In this document: one piece after another, positions 12,743 to 22,260 of the stretch
Layout of the letters: the number at the start of each line of letters is the position of its first letter
Numbering within the stretch: the stretch's first letter is position 1
Source of the DNA: a virus
IMG/VR virus record: IMGVR_UViG_3300031673_000163
Coordinates: 1 to 41,166 of that record
Length of the DNA: 41,166 nucleotides
Direction: 5' to 3' (one strand)
The notes under the pieces: generated by a model
Seen by the model: only the letters and a program-made list of their open reading frames with translations
Database searches by the model: none
What the model was told of the DNA's origin: nothing
Program-made: the position numbers and the translations under genes

Positions 12743-12782
12743 AAAAAATAGGTCAGAGTTTTAATTCTCTGACCTATTTTTT
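12743..12782. terminator. Bidirectional intrinsic terminator
   Basis: A 16-bp perfect stem containing ATAGGTCAGAG, an 8-base loop (12759-12766) and A/T runs at both ends, giving T6 on either strand. It separates the sheath gene from the converging minus-strand operon, and overlaps the TAA stop at 12781-12783. Confidence 0.92.
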
Positions 12783-13191
12783 ACATCGATTCTTCTACGG
12801 ACACTATATTTTTAATAGCCTCTATAACCTTCTTATTTAACTCTTCTGCTAAAACATTAATCGAAACGATATTATAAGTCTGTACACTAGATGCAACCAA
12901 ATCCATAATAACTCCAAGATCTTTTAAAATCTTGATAAAATAAGCAACTGTCTCGTACGGAATTTTATTAGAAAACAACCTAAATATTATAGAATCTCTT
13001 ACAGCATTGGACAAAAAGACTAAATCTCTTTTTTTAATCAATCTATTACCAAACATACCAGCATGTTCCTTCAAAGATAAATATTTTTCAATATCAAAAT
13101 CATTAGGAATAGCTACTACTATAGTATGATACTCTAGTCTATATTCATTATCACTATCATTATCTACAACATTATTCATACCTAAAGTCAT
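12781..13191 (-). CDS. Unknown protein (136 aa), last gene of the long minus operon
   Basis: A 136-residue soluble protein, mixed alpha/beta by composition, with no recognised motif. Its ATG overlaps the preceding stop as TAATG, and GAGGA lies about 6 bases upstream. Unlike the three genes before it, it lacks the TNSSS N-terminus, but the coupling suggests shared regulation with them. Transcription stops in the hairpin that overlaps its stop codon. Confidence 0.6.
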   Translation of the reverse strand: MTLGMNNVVDNDSDNEYRLEYHTIVVAIPNDFDIEKYLSLKEHAGMFGNRLIKKRDLVFLSNAVRDSIIFRLFSNKIPYETVAYFIKILKDLGVIMDLVASSVQTYNIVSINVLAEELNKKVIEAIKNIVSVEESM

Positions 13192-13538
13192 TAGTGGTCC
13201 TCTTCAATCTTAAATTTAAAACCCAGAAAACCATAGTCACTTTTAAGATCTTCTTTTTCTACAATAAACATAACCAACAAATCCCTCATATATTCTGGAA
13301 TATCATTAAAGTAATTATACATTGAAGTCCAATCACTAACTAAAAAAGTATTAGAAGAAATTTGTTCAATATCGTTTGGGTTAAAAAATCTTGCACTCCC
13401 ATTAATAACTGATGCATGAAAAGTCATATATCTTTCAAACGACTCCTTAAAATCCTCTAAGTTATCACCCTTTGACTGAATATACAACAAGAAACTTGCT
13501 GAACTTGAATTAGTCACAAAATCTGTTTTTATTTTCAT
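13191..13538 (-). CDS. TNSSS-motif protein 3 (unknown function, 115 aa)
   Basis: Begins MKIKTDFVTNSSSASF, the N-terminal motif shared with the next two upstream genes. The ATG at 13538 is preferred over the adjacent TTG, because it matches the other two proteins and AGGAG lies about 9 bases upstream. After the motif the sequence is unrelated to its siblings: about 100 residues, acidic, no signal peptide. Many proteins of unknown function in bacteria and phages begin with a similar DFVTNSSSSSF run. I recall this from sequence databases and know of no established role. Confidence 0.65.
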   Translation of the reverse strand: MKIKTDFVTNSSSASFLLYIQSKGDNLEDFKESFERYMTFHASVINGSARFFNPNDIEQISSNTFLVSDWTSMYNYFNDIPEYMRDLLVMFIVEKEDLKSDYGFLGFKFKIEEDH

Positions 13539-13550
13539 CAATAGTTTCTC

Positions 13551-14099
13551 CTATCTATCCTGTTCTGTAAAAACAACAAAACTTGGACAATTAATAGATA
13601 TCTTTCTTCCAGCATAATCCATTGTTGTTCCGACAGCATCCCCTTTAACATCACCATGATTATCTCCAAAAGATATCATTATATATGAAGACAATCCCTT
13701 CTTTTTAGCTTCTTTAAGAAGTTGAGTTCTTTTCTGTATAGTCTCAGCTTTTTCTTTATAATAAATATCATGTAAAGTTTTTGAATATTTACTTCCATTT
13801 TTATATAGATCAAAAAACATCTTTTTATCATCTTCAAAAGTCTCTATGATATGATCTATATTTGTAACATTTTTTAATAACCATAAATCTGAATCATTCG
13901 ATCTAATAACTTTATCTATTTCTCTAATTACATCCCAAGTAGTAATATTGAACACCAACTCTTCAAATGTATCATAAGATAGGTCGAATTCATGTTTATG
14001 TTCAAGTAATCTTTGATATAAGTCAATGTGGTCACCTTTAAAGATAAAATAGAAATTGGTTGAACTACTGTTAGTAATAAAATCACGTTTAATTTTCAC
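13551..14099 (-). CDS. TNSSS-motif protein 2 (unknown function, 182 aa)
   Basis: Begins MKIKRDFITNSSSTNF, with a GTG start supported by AAGGAG 6 bases upstream. The rest is helical and charged in the middle (about 60-130). The final part has beta character and an internal Gly/Asp-rich stretch (SFGDNHGDVKGDAVG). No catalytic motif recognised. It sits between two genes with the same N-terminus and divergent bodies, so the family looks like a common short tag attached to different domains. Confidence 0.65.
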   Translation of the reverse strand: MKIKRDFITNSSSTNFYFIFKGDHIDLYQRLLEHKHEFDLSYDTFEELVFNITTWDVIREIDKVIRSNDSDLWLLKNVTNIDHIIETFEDDKKMFFDLYKNGSKYSKTLHDIYYKEKAETIQKRTQLLKEAKKKGLSSYIMISFGDNHGDVKGDAVGTTMDYAGRKISINCPSFVVFTEQDR

Positions 14100-14109
14100 T
14101 TTGAACTCC

Positions 14110-14640
14110 TTAATGATGACTTATTGTTATATGTGGAAGTTGTACAAAAATATCACCATGTTCCATTTCAGAATATAAAGCTCCATCTTCATCAGCATAT
14201 GAAAACATATATACAACTTTTCCCACATTTTGATCTATAAATTTTTTAGCTTTATCAATCGCTAAATTCTTATTATATTCCTCAACTTCATCAATTTTAT
14301 CTTTACATTTTTTTCTGGCTTCTGTAAAGCCACAGTTGTGTCTTCGTTCATACTCATAAACTGCATCCAATGAATCTCTATAACCATCAAACCAACCAGA
14401 ACTTATTTCACTAGATATTCTATTTGTTATACTTTTTAAGACAGGATTCATATCAAAATCAAAATTATTATTTTGTAATATCATTGGTTGTTGTTTCAAA
14501 ATATCCCCATACACAATTTTAGCGTGAACTTCTGATCTTATATATTTTTTCACATCTTCATATGTTTTTACTTCTTTATCCCAAGCAACTATAAAACAAC
14601 TACTTGAACTATTTGTTACAAAATCTGTTTTAATTTTCAA
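14110..14640 (-). CDS. TNSSS-motif protein 1 (unknown function, 176 aa)
   Basis: Begins MKIKTDFVTNSSSSCF, with a TTG start preceded by GGAGGAG at 7 bases. The body contains a helical segment (about 65-130) and a C-terminal part containing VGKVVYMFSYADEDG, and ends in a His-rich run (ITISHH). The three motif genes use three different start codons (TTG, GTG, ATG in transcription order), which may set their relative amounts. Its only link to function is that it lies two genes downstream of a radical SAM enzyme. Confidence 0.65.
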   Translation of the reverse strand: MKIKTDFVTNSSSSCFIVAWDKEVKTYEDVKKYIRSEVHAKIVYGDILKQQPMILQNNNFDFDMNPVLKSITNRISSEISSGWFDGYRDSLDAVYEYERRHNCGFTEARKKCKDKIDEVEEYNKNLAIDKAKKFIDQNVGKVVYMFSYADEDGALYSEMEHGDIFVQLPHITISHH

Positions 14641-14643
14641 TTT

Positions 14644-15042
14644 TTATCTCCTCCAATAATCCAACCTTTCTAAATCAATTCTTTTATTATATTGTTCTTT
14701 AAACATATCAAAAAATATAACATCATAATCAATATCCGCAGATTGTTTTTCAGTTAAAAAAGTTTTAATAAGTATATTCATTTCTTCATAAAAATGGTCA
14801 CTAATCATCCTAGATGCGCATATTAAATCAACTCTAGTATTGAACCAATCTTTGAAACAAAACATTCTAAATAAACTTGGTATGTGAATATAAAGACCAC
14901 CATCATAATTTTCTGGTGGTTTACATATTCTTCTACCGCGCATTTCATTTATTTCTAAAAGAGAATGAAAATAAAAACTAGAAATAACATCCAAAGGTTT
15001 ATCAATGGAAGAATAAAAACTATAGTGATTACTATAACTCAA
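14644..15042 (-). CDS. Unknown protein between the radical SAM and TNSSS genes
   Basis: About 132 residues. The frame opens with TTG at 15048 and again at 15042. AAGGAG is only 2 bases from the first but 8 from the second, so 15042 is preferred. The protein is rich in aromatic residues (Phe, Tyr) with several Cys and no recognised motif. It lies 12 bases after the radical SAM stop and 3 bases before the first TNSSS gene, so it belongs to the same transcription unit. Confidence 0.55.
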   Translation of the reverse strand: MSYSNHYSFYSSIDKPLDVISSFYFHSLLEINEMRGRRICKPPENYDGGLYIHIPSLFRMFCFKDWFNTRVDLICASRMISDHFYEEMNILIKTFLTEKQSADIDYDVIFFDMFKEQYNKRIDLERLDYWRR

Positions 15043-15054
15043 AATCAATTCTCC

Positions 15055-16107
15055 TTACAAATTAAGTGGACATCTATCAGGTTTTATTTCTAACTTCTTT
15101 CTAAATAATCTAAACGATTCAGAATTGTTCCATACTTCATATATCGTTTTATCACGAATACTTTCACCGTACTCATCATGATCAGCAAAAGAACATGGAA
15201 CCAATCTCATATCAGGAGTTATGTATACAGACATTCTGGATGATTCACAAAAATCTATTGCCATTTGTTCAACTTCAGAAAAATTAGCAACTGATGCTAC
15301 ATGGTTGATCATACAGCTGTCCATCCCAATTTTAAATTTCAAATTCTGATTTTTAAGATTTGCAGAAAATTCTTTAAACATAGGATATGAAGGAACCCAT
15401 CTTCCTAACGACTTGCCACTTCCTTGAGGTTTAAATAATAAAAATACAACAGCATTTAATCTTTCAAAATCAACATCACCATTCCATATATCTTTTCCTT
15501 TAAGTATTTCAATAGCACTATCATGTGATTGCGTAGAATAAATAAAATGGATATTCGTTTTTATTCCAGCATCCATAAACATTTTTAGTGATTTATATGT
15601 ATACGATCTAACATAATCAGAAACTGCTACAGCACCACACATTTTTGATATTTCAACTTGTTCATTAGTTAGATTAATTCCGCTTGTTGTATAGTTTGGA
15701 ACTACATTATTATTTTTTGAATATTCAACTATTTCTCTGAAATTCTCATGTAAATTTGGATCACCTCTACCACCTAAAGCAATTTGATTTACATGGTGTT
15801 TAGTTTCGTCTATAATTTTTTTATAATCTTCTAATTTCATATTAGGTTCATTATTATCACCCTGATAACAAAATGAGCATTTATTTAAACAATGACCCAT
15901 AATTCCGCAGTCTATCATCGATGGTAATTCTAAAACAAAAGGATCTGGATTATCATCTATGCCGTAAAGAACTTCAACTCCAGTTTTCGTATTAAACAAT
16001 AATTCATATTTATCGTTCCTGAATGATTTGTCAAAACCTCCAACTACTGCAATTTTAGTATCTGGATCTTTAATGATTCTTACTCTCATTTCTTGATCTT
16101 TTTCCAC
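15055..16107 (-). CDS. Radical SAM enzyme with short Cys-containing C-terminal extension
   Basis: A 350-residue protein. Cys73-x3-Cys77-x2-Cys80-Tyr is the radical SAM [4Fe-4S] site, followed by a Gly-rich SAM-binding segment (ALGGRGDP, about 110-117). The C-terminus has further Cys at 265, 287, 305 and 346 around ITPDMRLVPC, like a reduced SPASM or twitch domain that holds an auxiliary iron-sulfur cluster. SPASM-type enzymes often modify peptides or proteins, so neighbouring gene products are candidate substrates. The start is GTG (AAAGG about 11 bases upstream); an in-frame ATG follows six codons later. Substrate unknown; the link to the TNSSS genes is inference from position. Confidence 0.85.
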   Translation of the reverse strand: MEKDQEMRVRIIKDPDTKIAVVGGFDKSFRNDKYELLFNTKTGVEVLYGIDDNPDPFVLELPSMIDCGIMGHCLNKCSFCYQGDNNEPNMKLEDYKKIIDETKHHVNQIALGGRGDPNLHENFREIVEYSKNNNVVPNYTTSGINLTNEQVEISKMCGAVAVSDYVRSYTYKSLKMFMDAGIKTNIHFIYSTQSHDSAIEILKGKDIWNGDVDFERLNAVVFLLFKPQGSGKSLGRWVPSYPMFKEFSANLKNQNLKFKIGMDSCMINHVASVANFSEVEQMAIDFCESSRMSVYITPDMRLVPCSFADHDEYGESIRDKTIYEVWNNSESFRLFRKKLEIKPDRCPLNL

Positions 16108-16158: not shown

Positions 16159-17952
16159 TTAAAGATTATTCAAAAGTTCCTCAATAGAAACTACCTTAAT
16201 TCCAAGATTTTCAGCTTTCTTTTGCTTACTCGACCCTTTACTTGGATCAGCTACAACTAACACGTCAAGATCTTTTGTAACTTTTTCCCAAATATCATAT
16301 CCCTTATTTTTAATCAAATCATAATAATAAGATTTCGTCTCATGGAATTTTCCAGTAAAACATATTTTCATCAGGTCTCCTTTTGCTTCAACATTTCTAA
16401 TGGGTAAAATTTTTAAAAGACGATCAATATATTCTTGATTATCTTTTAAACCATTAAAAAGAACTTTAGCTCTTTCAGGACCAATTCCTTGAATTGCCTC
16501 AAATTGATCAATATTATATTTTCTAATTTCTTCCAAAGATCTACCTTCTAACAAATCAGCACTCAAAGATCTTCCTATTCCTTCAAGATTTACAGACGAA
16601 AGAATCTGCCATTCAAAAACTCCATTTTCTTTAACTTTTTGAATCTCACCAAAAAGATTATTAGTTGAGGACTCAGCAAATCCTTCTAACGTGATGATAT
16701 CATCTTTATCTAAATGAAAAATATCAACTAAATTATATACATACAAATCATCTATCATTTTTCTTAGAGTTGGTTCACCAAGTCGTTCAATACCAATTCT
16801 AACAACAGCATCCATAAGTTTAACTAAATGCTTTCCCCTACAATCAGGATTAATACATACCATTTCTGGATCTTCATATCTAACATCAGAGTCACAAGCA
16901 GGACAATTAGTAATATAAATCCATTCTCTTTCTTGTCCTTGTGATACTCCAGCTGCAAAAGGTATTACATCACCAGCACGTTCAATCTTCAATTCATCTC
17001 CTATATGAATATCCATATCTCTTATATTTTTCATATTATGAAGATTGACATTTCGAATTGTAACTCCGCTAACTTCTACTGGTTCTACATTACCAATGGG
17101 AGTAATTGTATGTTTACCAACACTCCATGTTACTCCATTCAACTTTGAAAATGCAAATGGATTGGCAAATTTAAATGCTATCTCAGATTTTGAATAATGT
17201 CTTGTTGATCCTAATTGTTCTGCATATTCCTGATCATCAATTTTAAAAACAATACCATCAGCAGGATAATCTAACATCTTAATATCTCTTTCAATTATCC
17301 TTATTCCTTCTTCTCCAAGATTTTCTATGTCATTTAAATTCAATTTTACACCAAGATGACGAAAATCTACCAGAGTTAATATTTCGCCAACACTATAATC
17401 AATATCATCTCTATTTAATATTCCTCCAACTGCATTCCTTTCATTTTTATAAGATTCGCCACCCTTTCTGACGACCTTATTTATATTTTCTCTAAAACTA
17501 GATTTTTTAAAAAGAATTTCACCTCTAACATCTTTAGATCCAGTTGTTGAAAAAACTTTTATTAGAGGAAGTTTATCTGATACATCTTCGCCAACAATAC
17601 CATCTCCCCTTGTAGCCAAAACTCCATCTCTTAAATCTCCAGATACACCATCATATTTTACTTCACTTTTGAACATTTCATTTTTTGATCTAGCAACTTT
17701 TCTACACCATTTTACAAGATCTTTAAATGAATATACTTTATCAAGACTCAACATTGATATTTTATGACGAATCTTTTTTTCATTCGTTACTGGAGTATGT
17801 ACTTTAACTAAAAGTTCATTTGAAGGATCAAGTTCTTTAAGTTCATTTACTAATTTATCATACTCAATGTCAGAAATAATTGGGTCGCTCTTTTCCCAAT
17901 AAAGTTTATCATGTTTAGTTATTTCTAAAACCAGTTCATCTATTCTATTCAT
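16159..17952 (-). CDS. ligA: NAD-dependent DNA ligase
   Basis: A 597-residue protein, somewhat shorter than bacterial LigA (about 670). It has the full domain series: an N-terminal NMN-binding Ia domain; the adenylation domain with KYDG (active Lys99) and the later VFKIDD segment; an OB fold; a four-Cys zinc finger (CPAC, then C-x4-C, about 345-370); helix-hairpin-helix repeats (about 430-510); and a C-terminal BRCT domain (about 525-597). It seals nicks using NAD+. T4-type phages usually carry ATP-dependent ligases, so an NAD-type enzyme is a distinguishing feature. It lies in the same operon as two nucleotidyltransferases. The RBS is TAGGAG. Confidence 0.95.
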   Translation of the reverse strand: MNRIDELVLEITKHDKLYWEKSDPIISDIEYDKLVNELKELDPSNELLVKVHTPVTNEKKIRHKISMLSLDKVYSFKDLVKWCRKVARSKNEMFKSEVKYDGVSGDLRDGVLATRGDGIVGEDVSDKLPLIKVFSTTGSKDVRGEILFKKSSFRENINKVVRKGGESYKNERNAVGGILNRDDIDYSVGEILTLVDFRHLGVKLNLNDIENLGEEGIRIIERDIKMLDYPADGIVFKIDDQEYAEQLGSTRHYSKSEIAFKFANPFAFSKLNGVTWSVGKHTITPIGNVEPVEVSGVTIRNVNLHNMKNIRDMDIHIGDELKIERAGDVIPFAAGVSQGQEREWIYITNCPACDSDVRYEDPEMVCINPDCRGKHLVKLMDAVVRIGIERLGEPTLRKMIDDLYVYNLVDIFHLDKDDIITLEGFAESSTNNLFGEIQKVKENGVFEWQILSSVNLEGIGRSLSADLLEGRSLEEIRKYNIDQFEAIQGIGPERAKVLFNGLKDNQEYIDRLLKILPIRNVEAKGDLMKICFTGKFHETKSYYYDLIKNKGYDIWEKVTKDLDVLVVADPSKGSSKQKKAENLGIKVVSIEELLNNL

Positions 17953-17976
17953 ACTATTCTCCTAAAGATTGTTTTA

Positions 17977-18906
17977 CTATTTTAAAATTAATTGTCCATT
18001 GTCAATTCTGGGTAATTTTCTAAAAGAAAAAGGTTTTTGTAAAGAAATTAAATTCTCCAAAAATTTTAATTGTTCTTCAAAAATTAAATAAACCATAAAA
18101 GATAATTCTCTTGTAGCTCTAATCATTTTACTCTTATCTTTATCACTAAACCAACCCTTAACTTCAAAAATAATTTTATCATCAACTAGAAAATCGGGTA
18201 TATAAATTCTTTTAATCTCTTCATCAAAATATGGAAATCTCAAACTACATCTACTCCATCGATCTTTAAAGAAATATTCTAAAATATAAATAAATCTTCT
18301 TTCATATGAACTTTGATAAAAAATATCATTTATATAACCAGTTTTAAACCTTGATTTCATAGAGAATTTACCATCAATATAAGCTTGAGATATAATTTTT
18401 GATTGTTTTTCTCTTTCTTTTGGATCTAAAAACCTTGTAATTGTTCGATGCCGAAGTAATTCTCTTTCTCTTGGATTTCTGAATCTGTTTTTTGTAGAAT
18501 TGCTCATATTACTTCTGGCTTGTTTAGTCCATTGTTTTTTCCTAACTTTCAACATATGTTCTCTTTTAGTTTGCCACAATTTCTTTGCTGCTAAACTACT
18601 ACTAATTCTTTTTTTCTCTTTAAAATATGGATCATTATCTAGTTTGTATTTGATAACTTTGTTACCAATCTTAGATGCTCTTCTATTATCTTTTCTTCCT
18701 TTCTCAGTATTTTTAGATTCTTTAATACCAGACATCATCTTTTGTCTGATATCTTTATTTAACCAGTTCTTTTTTGCTAATTCTTGTTTCTTTTTAATCT
18801 GTTCTTCTGACAAATTAAGTTTTTTTCCTTTATTGTTATGACCTACAATAAATCTATTACCAGGTTTTACTAAAAAACCACAACCGCACTCACAAAATTT
18901 TTTCAT
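17977..18906 (-). CDS. Homing-type endonuclease of the PD-(D/E)XK fold
   Basis: A 309-residue very basic protein. It opens with a short Cys module (CECGCG) and Lys/Arg-rich repeats (about 30-185) typical of phage homing endonuclease DNA-binding regions. The C-terminal nuclease has SSYERRF (Glu202), YIPDF (Pro237-Asp238) and FEVKG (Glu248, Lys250): the PD-(D/E)XK active-site series, close to Vsr-like nucleases. It sits between the ligase and RlaP-like genes in the middle of an otherwise metabolic operon, as expected for an inserted selfish gene. The RBS is GAGG at a rather long spacing of about 11. Confidence 0.75.
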   Translation of the reverse strand: MKKFCECGCGFLVKPGNRFIVGHNNKGKKLNLSEEQIKKKQELAKKNWLNKDIRQKMMSGIKESKNTEKGRKDNRRASKIGNKVIKYKLDNDPYFKEKKRISSSLAAKKLWQTKREHMLKVRKKQWTKQARSNMSNSTKNRFRNPRERELLRHRTITRFLDPKEREKQSKIISQAYIDGKFSMKSRFKTGYINDIFYQSSYERRFIYILEYFFKDRWSRCSLRFPYFDEEIKRIYIPDFLVDDKIIFEVKGWFSDKDKSKMIRATRELSFMVYLIFEEQLKFLENLISLQKPFSFRKLPRIDNGQLILK

Positions 18907-18937
18907 ACCAATACAATCCTCTATTTTTATTTTTGTT

Positions 18938-20008
18938 CTAACATAGATCGCATATCGTACGACTTTCTAATAGAGGTTTAACTATATCTATACATAATTT
19001 ATTAATTATAGTTCTGTTTGGTTTATCTGGGAGCGATGATTTTAAATATAATTCTTCAAAATCATCTTCTACATGTTGAAGTTTCTCTAATAAATATTCA
19101 TAACTATATTTTCCATTTCTAATTTCAATCAAAAAATCAGCATCAGGTCTTGGAAAACTAATCTTACCACTTAAGAGAAGTTCTTCTGTCTCTGAAATCA
19201 ACCTGAAACAATGCATGCAAAATTTTGTATCATAACCAAATTTTTTCTCCAGTATAGCTCTATCTGGATTTCTATTCTTTTTCCAGTTTTGATAAGAATT
19301 CCATTCCCTCATTGAGTTACTATAAGCTTTCTCTCTATCAAGAGCCTCAATCAAATTATCAGAAACAGTCATTATCTTTGAAACTGCATTATAGTCTATA
19401 TTAACCAAATTTTGAATTGCAGAAATATAAGATACTGTTTCTTCCATTTTTTCTAACTCAACTGCTAATTTATGATGTTTTCCTATTTGTTTTAAATATG
19501 TAGATAATAATGCATTAAACGCTCCGATCTGATCTTTTGGTAGTAATGATTTGTTTTCAGGAAGACCATAATCACTTCTATTTGGTTGTTTCTTCGGCGG
19601 GTTTAATAACCAACTTCTATGTCTTTGTATTCTTTTTAACTGTGAATTAGCATATCCAAAAAAAGTATGTTTGCATTTTTTAGAAACAAAATACCTTCTA
19701 TTTAAAATAATATCATCCCACTCTTTAGTTTTATGAAGGATAAACTCATCTGGTATGAATAAAAACTCTATAATATTTGGATTATTATCAAGTGTTAGAA
19801 TGAGAAATTTTCGAATTTCATAAAACTCAAGATCTACTACGTCATCTTTGGGTTGTTCTACTCGATTCAAGAAACCATAAAAATATTCCTCGCTTGGAAT
19901 AAACACACCTCTTATATCTGTATCAGATAATTCTGTATTTGTTCCATAAAGATGACTTCCTGTTATAAATTTAGATATTAGTTTAAAATTATTCGGTAGA
20001 TTTAACAT
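18938..20008 (-). CDS. RlaP-like nucleotidyltransferase (DNA polymerase beta superfamily)
   Basis: A 356-residue protein with the nucleotidyltransferase signature GSHLYGT (Gly17-Ser18) followed by DTDIRG (two Asp of the metal site, about 29 and 31). A large helical C-terminal part contains NPNIIEFLF, PKDQIGAF and others. This matches RlaP (PF10127), a polymerase-beta-like family linked to RNA repair. Overlapping the upstream gene by 20 bases, it shares an operon with a CCA-adding-type enzyme and a DNA ligase, which supports a role in mending or tailing nucleic acid ends, perhaps tRNA broken by host defences. The substrate is inferred. Confidence 0.8.
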   Translation of the reverse strand: MLNLPNNFKLISKFITGSHLYGTNTELSDTDIRGVFIPSEEYFYGFLNRVEQPKDDVVDLEFYEIRKFLILTLDNNPNIIEFLFIPDEFILHKTKEWDDIILNRRYFVSKKCKHTFFGYANSQLKRIQRHRSWLLNPPKKQPNRSDYGLPENKSLLPKDQIGAFNALLSTYLKQIGKHHKLAVELEKMEETVSYISAIQNLVNIDYNAVSKIMTVSDNLIEALDREKAYSNSMREWNSYQNWKKNRNPDRAILEKKFGYDTKFCMHCFRLISETEELLLSGKISFPRPDADFLIEIRNGKYSYEYLLEKLQHVEDDFEELYLKSSLPDKPNRTIINKLCIDIVKPLLESRTICDLC

Positions 20009-20402
20009 TAACCTTCTCTTTTTCTTTCTCAGATGTTAAATCTACTGATGAATGTAAATCACCATTCTGTTTTCTTCCCGTTTTCGAATACATGTCTTTC
20101 CAAAATTGCCAATCACACAAAGGACCATCTACTCCAAAAACTTTTCTCATTTCTTCCATATCACCTACTGTAAGTTCGTCAATAAATCGGAGTAATGTCT
20201 CTGGTTTATCAGATGGTTGTATCCTGCAAAATAGTACTTTAATAAAATCTAGAATAACTTTACTAGATACATCATTTACATAGAAATCTATCTTGTAACC
20301 ATATTGAGGATGATCATCTTTTTTGCTTAATGTTAAATCAGCAATCAACCTCTGTAAATCCTTATCAATAGCACCTTCTGATCTTTTTCCTTTCATTTTC
20401 AT
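19989..20402 (-). CDS. Unknown protein upstream of the RlaP-like gene (137 aa)
   Basis: A 137-residue soluble protein with a basic start (MKMKGKRSEG) and a central helical part that includes DELTVGDMEEMRKVFG. The last ~25 residues are charged and look disordered. GAGAGG precedes the ATG by 7 bases. Its end overlaps the start of the RlaP-like gene by 20 bases, so the two are likely cotranslated and may interact. No family recognised. Confidence 0.6.
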   Translation of the reverse strand: MKMKGKRSEGAIDKDLQRLIADLTLSKKDDHPQYGYKIDFYVNDVSSKVILDFIKVLFCRIQPSDKPETLLRFIDELTVGDMEEMRKVFGVDGPLCDWQFWKDMYSKTGRKQNGDLHSSVDLTSEKEKEKVNVKSTE

Positions 20403-20403
20403 T

Positions 20404-20559
20404 TTAAAACCTCTCTTTAACTAAAATTTTTAAAAACAAATTACGATGACGATGCACCTCTAGGCGGGTACATTCCTCCTGTAGAATCAATACAGTACCC
20501 TCATATAAAAAACCATCATTGACGTCAGTGATTCTCTGACTTTTATATATTTGAATCAT
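20404..20559 (-). CDS. Possible small protein (51 aa)
   Basis: An open frame fills the 167-base gap between two operon genes and ends inside the next gene's ribosome binding region. The product starts MIQIYKSQRITDVNDGF and is mostly beta-like and basic. The start has only a weak RBS, so it is less certain than its neighbours. The filling of the gap, with no leftover spacer, favours a real gene. Confidence 0.4.
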   Translation of the reverse strand: MIQIYKSQRITDVNDGFLYEGTVLILQEECTRLEVHRHRNLFLKILVKERF

Positions 20560-20569
20560 CGTAAACTTT

Positions 20570-21910
20570 TCATAGAATCTCCAATTTCAAATACTTAAAA
20601 ACTAATTGTTTAAGGTTATATATATTATTTAGTTCAGGAACATCAACAACATTTTGAAGCAAGAATTTTAAAATATCTCCGATGAGTTTTCCTTGAGGGA
20701 TACCAGTTATTTTCATAATATCATTACCATTTAATTTCAAATGTTTAAAATTATTTGGTGGTTCCCTCGTTAATTCAGTTCTAATATCAGAAATAAGTTC
20801 TCTTGCTTTTGACAACTCATAATTTCCACGAAACAAATTTGACTTTCTATCAGAAAATTTCAATCGCACAATATCCTTATAATTAATTCCATGATCAGCT
20901 AATGCTTTAAGAGTTCTTCTAATTGATTTTGGTGATCTAAAATCTCTCATATGTAACTCGTTTATAAATGATACATAATTAGTATCGTCGTTAGAAAATC
21001 TAAGATGTTCTAATTCCTTTCTAACTACAACAGCTCCAGCTTTTTCATGACCAGCAAAATGAAACTCTCTTGTTTCTATATCTTGACACGCTGTTATTAC
21101 TTTACCAATGTCATGAAGGTATCCACCAAGTCGTAACAATGGATATTTTTTTGATATATTATCTCCGCACATCATACTGTGTGTAAATATATCTTCATTA
21201 TGATATGGTCCATGATCATGATCAAAACACCTGTCCAAAGTTGGAAAAATATACTTTAAAACATCGATCTCATGAAGAGCTAAAAAGAATATAGATGGTT
21301 TTCTATAATTCATACTTTTTAAAATTTCAATTTGAATTCTCTCCACATCAATATACTTTTCAACAAAGTAAGAATATTTCTTTAAAGCTTCTTTAGTACC
21401 TTCATCAAACTTACCTTCTATAAGAGCTAAAAATCTACAGGCTCTTATAATTCTATTTGGATCTTCATAAATGCGTTTTTCAGGATTACCTACAAACCTG
21501 ATTACCTTATTTCTTAAATCTTCTTTCCCTCCAAATCTGTCAATTATTTCTCCAGTATATTGACATCTTGCCATAGCATTTATTGTAAGATCACGACGAG
21601 ATAAATCTTCACCTATTGTTTTAGCAACTGAAATTTCAACATTCTTATCACTCAATCCAAAATATTTATCAGTTCTAAAAGTTGCTACTTCTACACCATC
21701 CACAAAAACAACTTTAAATGATTTACCTACCGTTTTAATTTTTTGTTCTTTGAATAGTTCTTCAATTTCATCTGAAGTTGCAGATGTAGCAATATCTATA
21801 TCCTTTGCTTCTACACCTCTCAAAAAATCCCTAACAGCTCCACCAACTACATAGGTTTCAAACCCATTTTGGCAAAGCCTATCAACTATGTATTTTGGTG
21901 TTGCTTCCAT
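20570..21910 (-). CDS. cca: CCA-adding enzyme / poly(A) polymerase family nucleotidyltransferase with HD domain
   Basis: A 446-residue class II nucleotidyltransferase. Motifs in order: YVVGGAVRDFLRG (nucleotide-binding GG-x-VRD, residues 20-32), DIDIAT (metal-binding Asp38 and Asp40), LSRRDLTINAM (about 105), and the EDPNRIIRACRF neck helix. A C-terminal HD phosphohydrolase domain follows (GGYLHDIGK, with other His around GHEK), as in bacterial CCA enzymes with phosphatase activity. It would rebuild or repair the CCA end of tRNA; the HD domain can remove 2',3'-cyclic phosphate ends. The RBS is AAAGGAG. Poly(A) polymerase activity cannot be excluded by sequence reading. Confidence 0.9.
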   Translation of the reverse strand: MEATPKYIVDRLCQNGFETYVVGGAVRDFLRGVEAKDIDIATSATSDEIEELFKEQKIKTVGKSFKVVFVDGVEVATFRTDKYFGLSDKNVEISVAKTIGEDLSRRDLTINAMARCQYTGEIIDRFGGKEDLRNKVIRFVGNPEKRIYEDPNRIIRACRFLALIEGKFDEGTKEALKKYSYFVEKYIDVERIQIEILKSMNYRKPSIFFLALHEIDVLKYIFPTLDRCFDHDHGPYHNEDIFTHSMMCGDNISKKYPLLRLGGYLHDIGKVITACQDIETREFHFAGHEKAGAVVVRKELEHLRFSNDDTNYVSFINELHMRDFRSPKSIRRTLKALADHGINYKDIVRLKFSDRKSNLFRGNYELSKARELISDIRTELTREPPNNFKHLKLNGNDIMKITGIPQGKLIGDILKFLLQNVVDVPELNNIYNLKQLVFKYLKLEIL

Positions 21911-21911
21911 T

Positions 21912-22217
21912 TTAATTCTCCTTTATATATTTTCTAACTTCTGACTCATCTTTTATTTCTTTACAATAACGATATGCCCATTTAGACTCTGTTATATATT
22001 TTCTAACTTCTGGTATGTCTTTAACAACTTTACAATAATAATATGCCCACATAGAAACTGTTATATATTTTCTAACTTCTGGTATATCTTTGACATTTTT
22101 GCAATAATAATATGCCCATTGAGAATCTGTTATAAGACTTCTAATGTTTAGATCATCTTCAACATAATAACAATAATTATATGACCATCCTGATATTTCT
22201 CTGGAATCTAACCACAT
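21912..22217 (-). CDS. Protein of tandem 23-residue repeats (101 aa)
   Basis: The start is placed at the ATG at 22217 (MWLDSREIS) because AAGGAG lies 7 bases upstream; the nine codons before it lack an RBS. Almost the whole protein is four copies of a 23-residue unit of the form VRKYIT-x-S-x-WAYYYCK-x-VKDIPE; the first copy is degenerate, and a fifth partial copy ends the chain. At DNA level the period is 69 bases. Helical AYxYA-type repeats of this sort are common in phage proteins of unknown role and probably form a small alpha solenoid for protein binding. It is the first gene of the long operon. Confidence 0.65.
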   Translation of the reverse strand: MWLDSREISGWSYNYCYYVEDDLNIRSLITDSQWAYYYCKNVKDIPEVRKYITVSMWAYYYCKVVKDIPEVRKYITESKWAYRYCKEIKDESEVRKYIKEN

Positions 22218-22260
22218 TAATTTTCTCCTTAAAAAATAAAACAAACTCTATTCATTTGTT

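Follow-up and report, generated by a model that had tools for sequence, protein, structure and literature searches.

The virus record IMGVR_UViG_3300031673_000163 of the IMG/VR database, 41,166 bases long and referred to below as the window, includes tail-sheath-like and other structural-looking genes. It also contains, on the minus strand, a gene for a radical S-adenosylmethionine (SAM) enzyme and three consecutive genes whose products begin with a common short sequence, called here the tag. In the order of transcription, the radical SAM gene (16107–15055) is followed by a gene encoding 134 amino acid residues (15048–14644), the tagged genes starting at 14640, 14099 and 13538, and a gene encoding 136 residues (13191–12781). 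Tagged protein 1 (14110..14640, 176 residues) starts at a TTG codon, tagged protein 2 (13551..14099, 182 residues) at GTG and tagged protein 3 (13191..13538, 115 residues) at ATG. The Shine-Dalgarno-like sequences just 5′ of these starts (GGAGG, AGGAG and AGGAGA, respectively) are in keeping with the three different start codons reported in an earlier note on this DNA. The N-terminal sequences read KIKTDFVTNSSSSCF, KIKRDFITNSSSTNF and KIKTDFVTNSSSASF for the genes at 14640, 14099 and 13538, and the respective tags are MKIKTDFVTNSSSSCF, MKIKRDFITNSSSTNF and MKIKTDFVTNSSSASF. A six-frame scan of the window found no fourth copy of the tag.

The earlier note had also described the three proteins as sharing an N-terminal motif in front of different bodies. 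This agrees both with the N-terminal sequences given above and with the separation of the three bodies, after removal of residues 1–18, into different blastp clusters (0, 15 and 8). A chance repeat or a duplication of whole proteins was considered and ruled out, since the bodies cluster apart. The body of tagged protein 1 belongs to phrog_7397, a PHROG of unknown function covering one of the tagged body families, and its cluster comprises 48 viral proteins. The cluster of tagged protein 2 has seven members, one of which is encoded on a Lokiarchaeota contig (L184).

The collection of tags comprised 272 distinct viral proteins, obtained by pattern scans of IMG/VR, and 148 proteins from one genome per bacterial or archaeal species, 420 in total. 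The tag occupies the 16–18 N-terminal residues with the consensus MK[IVF][KR]x[DG]F[VI][TS]NSSSxx[FY], commonly in the form MKIK-x-DFVTNSSSxxF, and up to about seven tagged proteins are encoded per viral locus. Residues 1–18 are near-invariant in the 272 viral proteins, and the information content falls steeply past residue 18. The viral loci selected by the enzyme yielded 83 distinct tags, where T9, N10, S11 and S12 are present without exception (83/83), S13 in 81 and an aromatic residue at position 16 in 82, the search expression having permitted T or S at position 9, N or S at 10, S or A at 11 and S, A, T or C at 13. Judged by this conservation, the motif is far beyond what chance would be expected to produce. 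In the 272 viral tags, the serine codons are a mixture of TCN and AGY, threonine uses all four of its codons and the start codon varies; the mixed serine codons indicate selection at the protein level and exclude an RNA element.

The bodies behind the tag are diverse. Tagged proteins are mostly 80–500 residues long and reach about 900 residues, and the cellular bodies include BspA-type leucine-rich repeats. After removal of residues 1–18, the 417 bodies that were long enough formed 99 blastp clusters, 57 of them singletons. Untagged homologues were also detected. The 136-residue protein of the window (12781..13191, minus strand), whose gene overlaps the stop codon of tagged protein 3, is an untagged homologue of a body that is tagged in other phages: BLASTP aligned it with a tagged protein of locus L030 (26% over 106 columns, E 8e-8) from tagged residue 17 onwards. 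In the cellular operons described below, a family of untagged paralogues can be aligned with the tagged sister family, starting at residue 13 (hhalign 96.7%, E 3e-10). Since untagged homologues align only past the tag, the tag is an extra segment placed ahead of complete domains.

AlphaFold2 models were obtained for tagged proteins 1 and 3, which differ in their predicted structure. In these models, residues 1–10 have a mean predicted local distance difference test score (pLDDT) of 47 and 49, the first strand begins at residue 13 in both, and the bodies are confident, with scores mostly above 90. The model of tagged protein 1 has a mostly helical fold with no PDB match, and that of tagged protein 3 shows a confident alpha+beta fold with weak ferredoxin-like matches and a disordered tag. 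It was not possible to find a convincing solved relative for either modelled body, or a solved structure of a tagged protein or of the tag, the single match being marginal (E 0.06). The tag is thus predicted by the models to be disordered ahead of folded bodies.

The radical SAM enzyme of the window (15055..16107, minus strand, 350 residues, GTG start) contains a CxxxCxxC motif formed by C73, C77 and C80 and a reduced SPASM domain. It passes the Pfam cut-offs for both Radical_SAM PF04055 (33.8 bits, cut-off 29.5) and SPASM PF13186 (25.7 bits, cut-off 21.5). Residues C265, C287, C305 and C346 are invariant in an alignment of 29 diverse relatives and would fit one auxiliary cluster; the reduced SPASM-like C-terminus that had been proposed on the basis of these four cysteines is borne out by the Pfam match and by their invariance. 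Additional SPASM cysteines are kept by the cellular members of the family and are absent from the window-type phage members, and the enzymes of gut Clostridia have a longer insert between the CxxxCxxC cysteines. As was found by the PDB profile search, the nearest solved enzymes are SuiB (E 1e-13), SkfB (E 6e-11), BtrN, PqqE, anSME (E 3e-5) and CteB, mostly SPASM/twitch enzymes that modify peptides and proteins. The search for an NCBIfam equivalog gave none, several maturase matches being all far below the cut-off, and PADLOC revealed only a weak similarity to viperin. By these profiles, the enzyme is assigned to the radical SAM/SPASM class, outside every named maturase family tested.

The tag and this enzyme are genetically paired. 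The family of the window enzyme is the top neighbour of viral tags, being found within five genes in 59 of 120 tag loci, and tail sheath is second with 32. Cellular loci were taken as blocks of at most 8 kb, where the enzyme was counted in six frames, since simple gene calls missed enzymes in G+C-rich loci; raw counts are used, as the flank filter keeps all enzyme-positive loci and drops some enzyme-negative ones. Of the 118 cellular tag loci, 92 have the enzyme no more than 5 kb from the tag; the distance is within 600 bp in 87, of which 85 have both on the same strand. The background frequency of the family is 7 in 929 sampled non-centre genomes (samples of 146, 391 and 395 genomes contained it in 3, 6 and 1, with the centre genome counted each time), and the chance expectation of a nearby enzyme is, roughly, about 0.003 of the 118 loci.

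The reverse comparison gave a similar picture. All three enzyme genomes of the first sample (146 genomes) have an adjacent tag, and a tag within about 2 kb was found in all seven cellular enzyme loci that were not sample centres and were chosen without regard to the tag; one of the seven (L353) possesses a variant tag found only with a wider flank. In the viral enzyme loci, a tag follows downstream of the enzyme on the same strand in at least 56 of 80 cases. Among the 50 tag records with no local enzyme, 30 carry the family elsewhere, the proportion being 16 of 17 for records of at least 100 kb. The pairing is near-obligate, in phages, bacteria and archaea. The enrichment of radical SAM genes near tags, which the earlier note had named in advance as a check, was therefore very strong in both directions and in all three groups. 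The suggestion that the nearby radical SAM enzyme is the partner of the shared tag stands in a narrower form, as the partner is one specific family and not radical SAM genes generally, and the modification of the tag is treated below as a proposal.

A second radical SAM family (CNLKCSYC) is located beside tags in one phage lineage (L091, L094, L096, L113, L116 and L134), where it adjoins SbcCD-like nuclease and ATPase genes. This family (cluster 11, e.g., in L091 and L113) was considered as an alternative partner and rejected. Since the main family also occurs in several of the records with this second one, the latter is probably a mere neighbour in the locus.

In INPHARED, 175 phages, mostly of Pseudotevenvirus and Slopekvirus, encode a relative of tagged protein 1. 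The INPHARED tblastn search matched the window enzyme to 168 records and the RB16 enzyme to 174, in nearly the same phage groups as the tagged protein; a 20-residue tblastn query and a tagged protein of L081 gave no match in this database. Phages RB16 and RB43 possess both the enzyme and the tag, the N-terminal peptide expected for RB16 or RB43 being MKIRSGFVSNSSSSSF. The genomes of RB16 and phiEap-3, T4-like phages of enterobacteria, contain two tagged genes each, flanking a 2.2-kb gene annotated as VWFA-like in RB16 (L027:8001–12369 in phiEap-3 and L028:8001–12391 in RB16); RB16p111 is a tagged protein of RB16. The reading that RB16-like phages lack the enzyme, based on PF04055 giving only a radical SAM match of 165–184 residues, perhaps of the NrdG type, was overturned by tblastn and by the profile of the enzyme family, which scored RB16p156 at 208 bits. 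It was the Pfam model that produced this apparent exception, since both searches found RB16p156.

Vibrio phage D479, the one clear outlier among the enzyme matches that could be followed, was picked by its enzyme alone (53% identical); tags were predicted to occur in it, and five tagged proteins were found. All nine tags seen in the enzyme clade of RB16, phiEap-3 and D479 are GFVSNSSSSSF, with G6 and S9. Outside that clade, among about 416 tags as collected with the search expressions used, G6 occurs in three and S9 in one. The tag variant tracks the enzyme clade, as is expected for a substrate and its enzyme.

Some cellular tag loci contain further components. An Avs2-like STAND NTPase was detected beside the tag/enzyme pair in 17 of the 118 cellular tag loci, with similarity to PADLOC Avs2 at E 5e-82 to 5e-17. 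The N-termini of the tag-linked STAND proteins are TIR, trypsin, DUF4062 or other, and their length is mostly 820–930 residues (1343 in L179), compared with about 1400–1500 residues for the Avs2 models, which have a C-terminal sensor region. An untagged paralogue is present in most of the STAND-bearing tag loci. Operons made up of a STAND NTPase, an untagged small protein, a tagged small protein and the enzyme were observed in L197:2348–5646 and L189:1266–5796, as well as in L149, L174, L190, L205, L207, L216, L223 and L249, L189 being from Arenibacter and L249 from Odoribacter; by their gene content, they are a candidate for an undescribed defence system. A few other cellular tag loci encode a MoxR ATPase and a DUF2201 metallopeptidase-vWA protein. 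In L248:2770–4293 and L192:5009–6433, the MoxR-type AAA ATPase and the DUF2201 metallopeptidase-vWA gene stand beside tagged leucine-rich-repeat or other tagged proteins. Neighbours of both kinds are characteristic of conflict systems. Most cellular tag/enzyme pairs have neither a STAND nor a MoxR/vWA neighbour within 8 kb.

The tag, its modularity and predicted disorder, the selection at the protein level, the pairing with one enzyme family and the co-variation of tag and enzyme clade are established by sequence. It is likely, though by no means certain, that the SPASM-type radical SAM enzyme recognises and modifies the portable N-terminal tag. The N-terminal segment of 16–18 residues would be a portable substrate tag on many unrelated proteins, and one radical SAM/SPASM enzyme per genome would bind it in its flexible state. 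The 5′-deoxyadenosyl radical, together with at least one auxiliary Fe-S cluster, would install the same modification in every tag, and the likely modified sites are among the near-invariant F7, T9, N10, S11–S13 and F/Y16. The modification most likely occurs inside the tag, because the strongest constraint falls on N10–S13 and on the aromatic residues at positions 7 and 16, and the bodies have nothing in common. By analogy with other SPASM enzymes, the candidate chemistry could be a cross-link of an aromatic ring to a nearby residue or the oxidation of serine, and each body, its N-terminus modified, would carry out a function of its own. The physical recognition of the tag, the placement of a modification in it, the chemistry and the purpose are inferred.

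Several points weigh against such a modification. The genetic evidence is one of pairing, which could also be explained by a regulatory or scaffolding effect of the tag on the enzyme. Adjacency is not universal, as the RB16 enzyme is located about 20 kb from the tags. About 22 of the 80 viral enzyme loci have no visible tag, though all of them are short fragments, and the enzyme went undetected in one tag record of 121.7 kb and in a few cellular genomes, for which incomplete assemblies may be responsible. The conservation of D6, F7, V8 and T9 in pattern-selected sets arises partly by construction, the enzyme-selected set being the cleaner test, and the counts of G6 and S9 depend on search expressions that favour D and T. 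In a number of phage contigs (L284–L286, L291–L293, L327, L335 and L338), the gene after that of the enzyme is untagged and often membrane-like, and the contig is devoid of tags; candidate readings are that the tag was lost, lies elsewhere or was altered past recognition.

The tag might instead be a mere docking leader, with the modified residues located in the bodies, as in the classical precursors of ribosomally synthesised and post-translationally modified peptides (RiPPs). As a rule, the enzymes of RiPP pathways bind a leader at the N-terminus and modify a variable core at the C-terminus, and a single enzyme with many substrates has precedent. The known pairs of RiPP maturase and precursor (SuiB/streptide, SkfB, PapB, CteB and WgkB) resemble the tag/enzyme pair in that a SPASM-type radical SAM gene adjoins the gene of a ribosomally made partner. 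However, the partners here are full-size folded proteins that share only the N-terminal tag, and not short precursors with leader removal. Neighbour clustering revealed no conserved export or leader-protease gene in viral or cellular loci, siderophore-type ABC genes being present in a few loci only. The bodies, modelled by AlphaFold2 as folded domains and distributed among 99 clusters, have no common residue pattern, and the invariant small residues N10–S13 would be unneeded for a docking helix or strand. A docking leader appears improbable. The siderophore-type ABC transporter genes were seen near tag/enzyme pairs of one tagged family (cluster 6) in L141, L193 and L214.

Another explanation is that the product of the enzyme is a small molecule, or its target a different one, and that the tagged proteins are its regulators, inhibitors or receptors, which bind it via the tag. 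The genetic evidence, being one of pairing only, would suit such an arrangement, and some cellular copies occur with STAND NTPases, in whose systems a small protein can have the role of sensor. Nevertheless, the up to about seven different tagged proteins for one enzyme and the disorder of the tag are better explained by a class of substrates, and the closest enzymes act on peptides or proteins. We attach a low probability to this explanation. Among those closest enzymes, anSME offers a distant sequence match and a parallel with modification of the tag, as a SPASM enzyme for the oxidation of serine or cysteine in large proteins, which it recognises by a short motif. Its motif, C/S-x-P-x-R, is internal and restricted to sulfatases, whereas the tag is N-terminal, serine-rich and carried by unrelated proteins.

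A role of the tag in targeting or packaging, such as into the capsid or the membrane, with the enzyme linked for another reason, is very improbable. The location of the tag at the extreme N-terminus is in line with such a role, and the internal proteins of phage T4 provide a known case of one short N-terminal sequence, the capsid-targeting sequence, on unrelated phage proteins with different bodies. The T4 signal, however, has another sequence, is cleaved after Glu by the prohead protease, is confined to phages and has no radical SAM partner. The tag has no conserved Glu cleavage site (Glu is absent from its conserved positions, with a peak of 1% at one position in the cellular tags), is also present in cellular operons outside phages and is linked to the enzyme in a near-obligate manner. 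A nucleic-acid element, such as a translation enhancer or a regulatory RNA, is suggested by the position at the start codon, is contradicted by the mixed serine codons, the four threonine codons and the varied start codon, and can practically be dismissed.

As to the purpose of a modified tag, the Avs2-like operon context hints at conflict biology. Phage-host conflict is the leading guess, made with low confidence, because the tagged genes of phages are surrounded by accessory genes, and Avs2-like operons contain some of the cellular copies. A more general proposal, which we regard as possible and rather doubtful, is that of prokaryotic tagging in which one mark is placed on about a hundred unrelated proteins, in phages, bacteria and archaea, the marked proteins acting in phage-host conflict: cells would mark small partners of Avs2-like STAND receptors, and phages whole arrays of take-over or counter-defence factors.

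The closest published idea is the proposal of Kaur et al. 2020 (PMC7159879), where radical SAM-SPASM modification of FxSxx peptides was predicted by genome context in vWA-MoxR (VMAP) conflict systems. Like the tag/enzyme pair, these conflict systems combine a radical SAM-SPASM enzyme with a genetically linked predicted substrate, and MoxR and DUF2201-vWA genes are also found at a few tag loci. They differ in the motif and in having a peptide substrate in place of an N-terminal tag on many proteins, and NSSS is absent from that paper. No entry for the tag or the tag/enzyme pair was found in Pfam, NCBIfam, PADLOC or PDB, and no open-access paper describes them, subscription journals and preprints being outside the search. 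The class of reaction is known; for one portable tag on so many proteins, no earlier description was found in this literature.

The remaining genes of the window locus can be described briefly. The 134-residue protein encoded between the enzyme and tagged protein 1 (14644..15048, minus strand) is of unknown family, with a weak match to phrog_34816. It has no relative among the neighbours of the related loci examined and is not conserved there; kinship with the untagged STAND-linked proteins was considered, and no relationship was detectable. Upstream of the enzyme on the same strand (16159–21910) lie genes for an NAD-dependent DNA ligase look-alike (16159–17952), an nrdC.11-like nucleotidyltransferase (18938–20008) and a CCA-adding enzyme look-alike (20570–21910). 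Relatives of the latter two are found repeatedly next to tag loci (clusters 10 and 8). The gene at 21912–22244 encodes a small repeat protein, consisting of degenerate units of about 20 residues (SxWAYxYCKxVKDxPEVRKYIT).

The radical SAM maturases known so far modify small peptides or single protein families. In the case described here, a single enzyme appears to act on a short tag that almost any protein can carry, in different domains of life as well as in phages RB16 and RB43 of laboratory Escherichia coli. If true, this would constitute a new class of protein modification and a genetically encoded means of directing radical chemistry to proteins of choice. It would also open a route to naming hundreds of hypothetical phage genes and would connect radical chemistry with bacterial immunity of the NLR-like kind.

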